The notes below the pieces were generated by a model. It had not been told where the DNA came from, did not search any database, and saw only the letters and a program-made list of their open reading frames with translations. 64,000 nt of DNA from Spartobacteria bacterium (lineage in GTDB: Bacteria; Verrucomicrobiota; Verrucomicrobiia; Chthoniobacterales; UBA10450), in NCBI GenBank assembly GCA_003167555.1, contig PMSN01000023.1, forward strand, positions 1 through 64,000. The letters are read 5' to 3'. Both the position numbers and the translations under genes were made by a program. Positions 44,768 to 46,330 of this stretch are shown here, piece after piece. How positions within the stretch are numbered: the stretch's first letter is position 1; the number at the start of each line of letters is the position of its first letter.

Positions 44768-45772
44768 TCATGTCAAAACATAACGGCCGGCCTTCTTGGT
44801 TCCGATCCGGTGCACCAGCCCGGCTTTCATCAACGGACGCAATAGATCCAGGGCGCCTTGCTTCGAGACGCCAACTGCGTCCCAGATTTCCCGTGGCGTC
44901 AGTGCCTTATGTTCGCGCAGCAGGTGAAGCAACTGCTCCTGTTTGGGGCGAAGCACCAGCTTTGATTTGCCGGCATGTGCCGTCAGTTTTTGAATCCGGC
45001 TCCAGACTCGTTCCAGGGTCACGCGCAATCCTTCTGCGCTGTACTCGAGCCAGCTCGTCAGCGCCTCCTCGTCCTGCTGCGCCTTCTCCAGCGCGGCGTA
45101 ATAGCGCGGGCGGTCCTCCCAATAAAATTCGTCGATCGAAAAGATGTGGTGATTGTCGAAGCCGCGTCGATACAGTTCCCACAAGCCGAGCATGCGGCCG
45201 GTGCGCCCGTTGCCATCGGCAAAGGGGTGGATCGTTTCAAACTGATGATGGAGGATTGCCGAGCTCAGAACCGGTGAAATCTCCGTCGCATCCCTGTTCC
45301 ACCACGCCAGCAGATCCGACATCATCGGCTGCACCCGTTCCGGCGGCAGCGCGACATAGCTTCCAACCCGGACACGAATCGTTCGATATTGCCCGGCCTT
45401 GCCCTGGTCCATCACTTCACCTGCCATGATGCGATGCAGCTTCAACCCCCGGGCGTGCGTAATCGCGTCTGCCTTCGCGTTTTTTTCCACGAACCGCAGC
45501 CCGGCAAAATAATTCGCTATTTCCCGGCGCGGGCGCTGCGCCGTGGCTGGAATCTCACGCCCATCTTCGATCGCGCGCACTTGTTCCAGGGTTAGTGGGT
45601 TACCTTCGATTGCAGTCGAAGAATGGGCGTTACGAATGCGCGTATCCTTCTGCAACGCCGGAATCCATGGCACCTGGACAGCCGCGGCCAGAATCCGTTC
45701 ACGCAAGGCCGCGACCTTTTCCACCTGCGCCAGGAGGAGGGGCGTGATCGTGTAAAAGGGTTTGTAACTCAC
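44768..45772 (-). CDS. Fic-domain protein with N-terminal inhibitory helix and C-terminal winged helix
   Basis: The 334-residue protein has the class II layout. An inhibitory motif SSTAIEGNPLT (S/TxxxEG/N) lies near residue 52, and the Fic core HHQFETIHPFADGNGRTGRM near residue 176 has all catalytic residues of HPFxxGNGRxxR. The C-terminal wHTH (TPREIWDAVGVSKQGALDLL) ends the protein. Fic proteins transfer AMP or related groups onto target hydroxyls; the inhibitory Glu blocks ATP binding until relieved. The wHTH and the two AGTCAA arrays just upstream suggest autoregulation. No partner antitoxin is needed in this class. Confidence 0.92.
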   Translation of the reverse strand: MSYKPFYTITPLLLAQVEKVAALRERILAAAVQVPWIPALQKDTRIRNAHSSTAIEGNPLTLEQVRAIEDGREIPATAQRPRREIANYFAGLRFVEKNAKADAITHARGLKLHRIMAGEVMDQGKAGQYRTIRVRVGSYVALPPERVQPMMSDLLAWWNRDATEISPVLSSAILHHQFETIHPFADGNGRTGRMLGLWELYRRGFDNHHIFSIDEFYWEDRPRYYAALEKAQQDEEALTSWLEYSAEGLRVTLERVWSRIQKLTAHAGKSKLVLRPKQEQLLHLLREHKALTPREIWDAVGVSKQGALDLLRPLMKAGLVHRIGTKKAGRYVLT

Positions 45773-45777
45773 TGGGA

Positions 45778-45953
45778 GTGAGTCAAGCGTAAGTCAAGTT
45801 ATTAGTCAAGTGCGGCGCGCCCCGGGGCGGGGCCGGAGGAAGTGGGCTTCGCCTCGAACCTAAGGCGAGCCTGCCACGCCTGTCCCGCCGCAGCTTCACG
45901 CGAAGGCGGATTGGCGAAGGTGGGTCAAGCCTAAGTCAATTTTTTAGTCAACC
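45778..45953. promoter_or_regulatory. Two matching arrays of three RGTCAA boxes upstream of fic
   Basis: Array 1 has AGTCAA at 45781, 45792 and 45804. Array 2 has GGTCAA at 45923 and AGTCAA at 45934 and 45946. Both have spacings of exactly 11 and 12 bp, close to a helical turn, and the 34-bp blocks are otherwise similar. They are separated by about 108 bp of GC-rich, repeat-like DNA. Array 1 begins 6 bp before the fic start codon. This looks like a cooperative operator duplicated around an insertion; the binding protein is unknown, possibly Fic itself. Confidence 0.5.
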
Positions 45954-46088
45954 TCGCTGGCATCATCAGACAAGCGTGAGACCAGAGATGAGACAATGCC
46001 CGAACGTTACTGAGCGAGATTCACCAGACGGACCCTTCTATTCTGACCCCACTTTGACACACTGCAGATGAGTTAGGTGTTATGCTGA

Positions 46089-46330
46089 TCAGTAATGAAA
46101 CAACAGAAAAAGCCAGCACGCGATACTGAGAAGTAGTGACAACGCGGATAGAATCAGAGCGATGGTGACTCGTGCGGTAACAACCTGCGCGGCTACTGCG
46201 ACGGCGTGAATACGCTCCGATAGTTCCGTGAATGCGTCCCGCAGTGCCTCGACTGTTTGCTGTAGTTCGTCCTCGACCTTCTCTGCATCCGGGGCCTTCG
46301 GTTTGCCGATCTTTGCTAACCCGCGAAGGC
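46089..46330 (-). pseudogene. Start-less reading frame: coiled coil plus one membrane helix
   Basis: Between a TGA (46089-46091) and the hairpins at 46343, one minus frame reads AKIGKPKAPDAEKVEDELQQ, then TVEALRDAFTELSERIHAVA, then a hydrophobic helix ALILSALSLLLSIACWLFLL. The composition is protein-like, but there is no ATG, GTG or TTG near its beginning, and the frame runs straight into the palindromic sequence. It is probably the 3' part of a small membrane protein gene truncated by a repeat insertion. The stretch 45954-46088 holds nothing I recognise. Confidence 0.45.

Follow-up and report, generated by a model that had tools for sequence, protein, structure and literature searches.

Two direct-repeat arrays upstream of a class II type fic gene form a conserved candidate operator for the Fic winged helix

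What are the two arrays of TTGACT-like boxes that precede a fic gene in a Spartobacteria bacterium, and which protein is likely to read them? The window in which they were noticed, that is, the whole stretch of DNA analysed here, comprises 64,000 nucleotides of contig PMSN01000023.1 (GenBank assembly GCA_003167555.1). On its plus strand, array 1 reads AGTCAA-N5-AGTCAA-N6-AGTCAA and array 2 reads GGTCAA-N5-AGTCAA-N6-AGTCAA. On the strand of fic, each array corresponds to TTGACT-N6-TTGACT-N5-TTGACY, both lie upstream of the gene, and their starts are 142 bp apart (Table 1). An initial annotation, made from the letters of the window, had described two arrays of three RGTCAA boxes with identical spacing, a description that proved exact as neither array contains a mismatch. 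The 11 and 12 bp that it gave as gaps hold in both arrays as start-to-start distances, whereas the gaps themselves measure 5 and 6 bp. Likewise, the segment between the arrays is GC-rich as described but longer than the claimed length of about 108 bp. The first array was rightly placed next to the fic start codon, from which it is separated by 8 bases (GTG, 45770-45772, minus strand).

Table 1. Positions in the window of the two arrays, the fic gene and the parts of Fic discussed in the text.
Feature	Coordinates	Strand	Detail
Array 1, proximal candidate operator	45781..45809	-	TTGACT AATAAC TTGACT TACGC TTGACT
Array 1 boxes	box 1 45804-45809; box 2 45792-45797; box 3 45781-45786		order on the fic strand
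Array 2, distal copy	45923..45951	-	TTGACT AAAAAA TTGACT TAGGC TTGACC
Box starts	45781, 45792, 45804 (array 1); 45923, 45934, 45946 (array 2)	+	
Segment between arrays	45810..45922		113 bp, 73% GC
fic gene	44768..45772	-	334 aa, GTG start; class II type by motif
Fic C-terminal winged helix	44771..44947	-	residues 276-334; Pfam HTH_24 and predicted fold
Fic recognition helix	44825..44863	-	residues 304-316; predicted fold
Asp309 codon	44846-44848	-	linked by co-variation to the base 5' of the boxes

A search of the window for the three-box pattern with up to three mismatches returned two matches, both without any mismatch, where 0.10 were expected from shuffles, and at least two such matches were found in only 2 of 100 shuffled windows. 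Single RGTCAA hexamers showed no enrichment (35 observed, 47.7 expected), indicating that the signal resides in the array rather than in the hexamer. In the 4.2-Mb source genome, the strict triplet is confined to the two window arrays. The genome search that the initial annotation had proposed therefore revealed no further triplet at this spacing, and we rejected a dispersed repeat of the REP or MITE type. A looser two-box pattern matched the same genome three times within the arrays and once elsewhere, against one match for the control. We also rejected the GC-rich segment as a member of a repeat family, its other matches in the genome being weak and short (best E 0.009), and searches by blastn returned no DNA-level relatives on plasmids. 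Finally, a chance origin of the arrays was rejected by the shuffle counts in the window together with the conservation in homologues described below.

The protein encoded behind the arrays matches the Pfam Fic family (E 5e-21). It contains the inhibitory motif STAIEGN and the catalytic motif HPFADGNGRTGR, and judged by these motifs it is a class II type Fic and a putative AMP-transferase. All 101 rows of the family that we aligned, window included, contain a catalytic motif of the form HPFx(D/E)GN(G/K)Rxx(G)R and, N-terminal to it, an inhibitory motif of the form S(S/T)AIEGN, although ten of these rows were chosen by TAIEGN. The C-terminal winged helix claimed by the initial annotation was borne out both by a Pfam HTH_24 match at residues 276-320, which lies just above the cut-off (22.7 bits vs 21.9), and by the predicted fold. 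In the best AlphaFold2 model, the winged helix is predicted to consist of helices at residues 276-288, 293-300 and 304-316 and of wing strands at residues 320-323 and 330-333. This model had a mean pLDDT of 77.6 (59-63 on average for the other four), with values below 50 at residues 31-54, 208-215 and 266-271, so the putative helix of the inhibitory motif is poorly modelled. When the model was compared with known folds, 4rgl was the best match, CbFic2 ranked third and SoFic came further down. The PADLOC SoFic model matches the window Fic with an E-value of 3.8e-56, as judged by E-value and not by PADLOC's own cut-off. In contrast, the score of the protein against the NCBIfam SoFic equivalog NF046030 is 73.7 bits, far below the cut-off of 550.

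We then examined the leaders of related fic genes. A scan of GTDB genomes yielded 194 related loci, of which the best 80, 62-87% identical, were kept. The titles of these 80 relatives, as deposited and in some cases doubtful, name Verrucomicrobia, Lentisphaerae, several proteobacterial classes, Nitrospirae, Acidobacteria and Planctomycetes. Each row received an array score, defined as the best 29-base match to TTGACY-N6-TTGACY-N5-TTGACY at most 90 bases from the start, with a maximum of 18. Among the window and the best 80 of the 194 relatives, 37 of the 81 rows reached the full 18/18 and 79 had 14/18 or more, whereas controls, one inside a gene and one shuffled per row, reached at most 11 and 12, respectively. 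Two rows were without a proper array (L081, score 10; L084, score 12). The consensus of the 73 rows of the Asp class (see below), CTTGACtcATAACTTGACTtATACTTGACT, is made of near-perfect copies of a single unit of 11-12 bp. In a subclade formed by L060 and its kin, the boxes follow an 11-bp period, and L060 itself has six of them.

The second array has a different distribution. A second match scoring at least 15/18 was found in 13 of the 15 rows of the window clade (window and L006-L019) vs 1 of the 66 other rows, and the segment between the arrays measures 16-73 bp in the 12 relatives that have such a second array. Start-to-start distances between paired arrays range from 45 to 142 bp and cluster in helical phase (R = 0.71), a clustering on which we did not rely because the rows share ancestry. 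For L011, L014 and L016, the distal array outscores the proximal one. Judged by these alignments, the proximal array is the family-wide conserved element and the second array is a feature of the window clade. Alignment of the family revealed no relatives in viral contigs, and the matches in phages and plasmids were limited to Fics of less than 60% identity.

Furthermore, we observed that the array is almost exclusive to fic. The strict pattern occurs 14 times in 12 of the 387 genomes of the phylum, vs two matches for the reversed control pattern. Eleven of these sites stand before fic, among them the two of the window genome, one whose fic is cut by the contig end and one whose fic is shortened to 272 aa; a remnant of fic follows one further site (L112), and the last two, L114 and the second site of genome G029, are not followed by fic. 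A fic homologue at E <=1e-40 is present in 18 genomes of the phylum; nine of them have a strict site, and the nine without one include several with altered boxes and some with distant Fics. The truncated fics L099 and L101 were left out of the counts. A relaxed pattern was searched in the whole genomes of 40 loci chosen from the 80, which covered 38 genomes (L067 and L076 left out). This search found 30 sites in 29 of the 38 fic-bearing genomes, nine being without a match, while the control pattern gave none. Of these sites, 29 are located directly before an intact fic and one before a fic fragment reduced to the winged helix; of the 29 genomes in which the site occurs, 28 have a single copy.

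Some of these loci are described here for their own sake. In genome G394, a second copy of the operator (L160, minus strand; base 1501 of the reverse complement) precedes a frame of 107 aa that encodes only the Fic winged helix and no catalytic domain, and the same genome also carries a full fic (L043/L153). G029 (L109/L117) has a second perfect array, oriented like the first, about 430 bp downstream of its fic; no fic follows this copy. At L112, the array is followed by the first codons of fic, which run into letters that, as read by eye, look like the linker in front of the winged helix (bases 1501-1600 of the reverse complement); this locus is probably a decayed, internally deleted fic. The fic behind the perfect array of G206 (L108/L099) has 272 aa and stops before the winged helix; this copy has kept the operator and lost its presumed reader.

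To find out which protein reads the site, we set each operator against each Fic. We analysed co-variation in 91 rows with a score of at least 14 (L081 and L084 dropped) and again in 101 rows after ten additions, which represent 100 distinct proteins since L083 and L091 encode the same one. The ten added rows derive from 30 loci of 43 matches, 19 of which were duplicates and one of which, L202, was without the fic motif; a further 11 matches were left out. When the bases 5' of boxes 2 and 3 were considered jointly in the 91 rows, the top three protein columns after normalisation by entropy were S302, D308 and L310, which belong to the recognition helix or lie at its start. In a ranking by raw mutual information, D308 came first and was followed by the variable non-helix columns H282, S137 and H265. 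This numbering skips the first residue, so D308 is Asp309 of the window protein. Lys occupies this column in nine of the 101 rows. In all nine, boxes 2 and 3 are each preceded by G, which is the case in none of the 92 other rows. Among the 86 Asp rows, 74 have C before both boxes, six have C and G, and six have C and A. A preference of Asp for C and of Lys for G is also in line with common protein-DNA contacts.

The association of Lys308 with G has a Fisher value of 4.8e-13, which ignores relatedness. A careful tree built from only the Fic part places four changes of each trait, and the two change together in 4 of 4 independent pairs on starred branches; with four pairs, too few to reach significance, a two-sided sign test gives p = 0.125. 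A quick tree of the 91 rows also gave four changes per trait, with only two pairs on starred branches. L184 shares TTGTCT boxes with most of the Lys group, yet it carries Asp and C, showing that the change of box word and the link of Asp and Lys with C and G are separable. The initial annotation had pointed to Fic, through its winged helix, as the reader of a cooperative operator in front of its own gene, and this proposal gains support from the conserved site, its near-exclusivity to fic and its co-variation with the recognition helix. On this evidence, the site is very probably read by Fic's own winged helix, and we hold it to be highly likely that Fic binds the arrays.

The position of the arrays suggests what such binding might do. 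In the rows measured (the window, L006-L010, L012, L063, L066, L073 and others), box 3 lies either 5-11 bases (mostly 6-8) or 17-22 bases ahead of the start codon, two classes that are about one repeat unit apart; the window belongs to the short-leader class. Among the 48 long-leader rows (box 3 aligned 17-22 bases ahead of the start, score of at least 15), 38 have a TANNNT motif 16-18 bp after box 2, vs 7% in shuffles. The start codon follows 6-7 bases after this motif in 32 of the 38. One of the 48 rows has a Shine-Dalgarno-like word. From this geometry, box 2 looks like a -35 element of a promoter whose mRNA would start at or near the start codon. No -10 element was evident in 21 short-leader rows, window included, and a promoter scan of positions 45600-46200 predicted none on the fic strand. 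We also found no inverted repeat (8 bases exact or 10 bases with one mismatch, spacer of up to 40) in the 288 bases before the window fic. Since box 2 fits a -35 element in 38 of the 48 long-leader rows, autorepression is the likeliest outcome of binding. Since neither a -10 element nor a fic-strand promoter was found in the window, repression is least secure there.

Hence, we consider it probable, on these comparisons, that the arrays are bound by the winged helix of Fic and mediate negative autoregulation of fic. Three Fic protomers, each occupying one repeat of 11-12 bp (unit CTTGACTNATA), would line up head to tail along the same face of the DNA, and from the spacing of one helical turn we infer that they bind cooperatively. 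The protomer over box 2, the apparent -35 element, would block RNA polymerase, and through the resulting autorepression a potentially toxic AMP-transferase would limit itself to a small pool. Where hsdR, recC or addB closely follows fic, these nuclease genes would come under the same control. The second array of the window clade could reinforce repression or could be a relic of duplication.

Several other explanations were weighed against this one. Given that TTGACT resembles TTGACA, the boxes might be iterated -35 elements for the housekeeping sigma factor and might not be bound by Fic, and the distance from box 2 to TANNNT in the long-leader rows also favours this view. However, boxes 1 and 3 are about as conserved as box 2, keep the fixed N6 and N5 spacing and, in the long-leader class, do not lie at promoter distance; elsewhere in the genomes the triplet hardly occurs, and the base 5' of the boxes tracks a residue of Fic. 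Iterated sigma-factor elements are thus very unlikely to account for the arrays. We find it just as hard to believe that another host transcription factor binds the arrays and controls fic. Spacing by helical turns is typical of many regulators, and Fic was named as the binder from sequence comparisons, but a host factor would be expected to have other targets, whereas the site is single in nearly all site-bearing genomes (28/29) and stays with fic across many phyla, as judged by record names. Nor would co-variation with the recognition helix of Fic be expected of such a factor.

The occurrence of the family in records named from many phyla, the second array that lies downstream of fic in G029 and the solitary or remnant sites L114 and L112 would also suit arrays that are the ends of a fic-carrying mobile element or its attachment sites. 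This origin is extremely unlikely, as fic is not flanked by arrays but has one upstream site in 28 of the 29 site-bearing genomes, and the two narrow classes of distance between box 3 and the start codon fit a promoter function. A last alternative retains Fic as the binder and supposes that it occupies the arrays mainly for inactive storage, positioning or activation instead of self-repression. The activity of CbFic2, a Fic protein of Coxiella burnetii, changes upon DNA binding (PMC10628234), and the window promoter is not recognisable, both of which speak for such a role. Conversely, the overlap of box 2 with the apparent -35 element in most long-leader relatives (38/48) is the geometry of a repressor, and a Fic protein with a helix-turn-helix (HTH) domain, CccR, is an autorepressor (PMC9755527); we regard a role other than self-repression as unlikely.

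Negative autoregulation by Fic, the reading that we prefer, has a precedent in CccR of Yersinia pseudotuberculosis. CccR combines a Fic domain with a C-terminal HTH and represses its own promoter from a site near the -35 and -10 elements; it is also described as a secreted effector (PMC9755527). No other Fic-HTH protein in the literature covered has had a site mapped in its own promoter. The window Fic resembles CccR in joining an N-terminal Fic domain and a C-terminal HTH in one chain, and in having a specific site in its own promoter region, which in our case is a candidate that is conserved, fic-specific and co-varying. The two operators differ, since that of CccR is an inverted repeat with a long spacer, AGATAATCAT-N26-ATGATAATCT (PMC9755527), whereas the window fic is preceded by a direct triplet of another word. 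A parallel to the triplet itself is RptR, the autorepressor of a type I restriction-modification island, which acts on three direct repeats in the promoter and is conserved with its site across bacteria (PMC12255303). Three direct repeats, conservation together with the site and a link to type I restriction are also found in the window Fic family. However, RptR is a helical protein of 79 aa without a catalytic domain and its sites are TAGCTA palindromes (PMC12255303), whereas the candidate reader here is a Fic enzyme and the restriction link is restricted to a minority of relatives.

Other Fic proteins are related in architecture. CbFic2 is a class II Fic whose C-terminal winged helix binds DNA; it was assayed with random DNA and studied as a histone-modifying enzyme, and no promoter site is reported in the sections of the paper available to us (PMC10628234). 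The window Fic is likewise class II with a C-terminal winged helix, and its modelled fold is similar. Sofic is a Fic anti-phage toxin, and the name SoFic designates Shewanella SO_4266 (PMC12249575); like the window Fic, SoFic is a class II Fic with a C-terminal domain. The abstract, outline and discussion of that article mention no binding site of its own for Sofic, and according to a 2023 paper DNA binding by SoFic had not been demonstrated (PMC10628234). Fic-HTH relatives are dimeric in crystals (PMC10628234, PMC9755527), and binding to direct repeats is said to need broken oligomer symmetry; both points count against the preferred reading. Within the open-licence PMC literature, as far as its texts were accessible, we found neither a TTGACT-type array before fic nor direct-repeat autoregulation by Fic. 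Autoregulation by a Fic-HTH protein is known, and a direct-repeat operator kept across phyla would be what this family adds.

In the window, fic stands alone between the gene of a carboxypeptidase-regulatory-domain protein, beyond which a histidine kinase is encoded, and a MacB/FtsX permease gene. Among the 80 relatives, 51 have an ORF of at least 90 codons on the same strand that starts between -25 and +180 bp from the fic stop. The families found in these 51 ORFs, in overlapping sets, include ResIII (11), SWI2/SNF2 (9), HSDR_N (5) and EcoEI_R_C (5), as well as RecC (2) and AddB (2), the remaining ORFs being of mixed type or matching none of the families shown. By these counts, fic has a nuclease or helicase neighbour in a minority of cases. 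The upstream gene is HsdS in L055, L063, L067 and L080, which were chosen by eye for their C-terminal letters, and fic lies between hsdS and hsdR in two plasmid relatives of 28-34% identity. The unit of operator and fic was also seen directly before recC with a gap of 20-21 bp (L073 and L082) and before addB with a gap of 116-121 bp (L022 and L036).

The location of fic directly before hsdR, recC or addB suggests an AMP-transferase that regulates restriction or recombination nucleases, in parallel to what is described for RptR. More broadly, the family could be a portable, self-contained switch that travels across phyla with its own promoter-operator and controls HsdR, RecC or AddB where it precedes them. 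Operator-bound Fic would then be a stored inactive form, and a loss of occupancy, for example upon phage attack or DNA damage, would both derepress the operon and free the enzyme, while a readout of C by Asp and G by Lys would set operator specificity, so that the pair of protein and operator could be recoded by one residue. We regard this broader scheme, taken as a whole, as speculative and rather unlikely. Independently of it, the family constitutes a natural series of about 100 pairs of protein and operator from many bacterial groups, which predicts the bound sequence, a stoichiometry set by three boxes and one residue that sets specificity.

Finally, leaders of more distant Fics, 27-38% identical, were searched for triplets in helical phase. 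A strong one was found in 2 of the 12 rows tested (L172, L174 and L175 left out), consisting of GGCTA repeats in L168 and of ACATAA repeats in L100, and none of 200 shuffles reached either score. The triplet of L165 was marginal (9 of 200 shuffles), and the remaining nine rows tested gave no signal. No closer relatives of L168 were found. Its Fic is 31% identical to that of the window, and the GGCTA repeats follow one another at exact 11-bp steps within about 80 bp upstream of fic, the best triplet scoring 18/18. This arrangement suggests, on the basis of the leader sequence, that L168 may have the same operator geometry written in another word.
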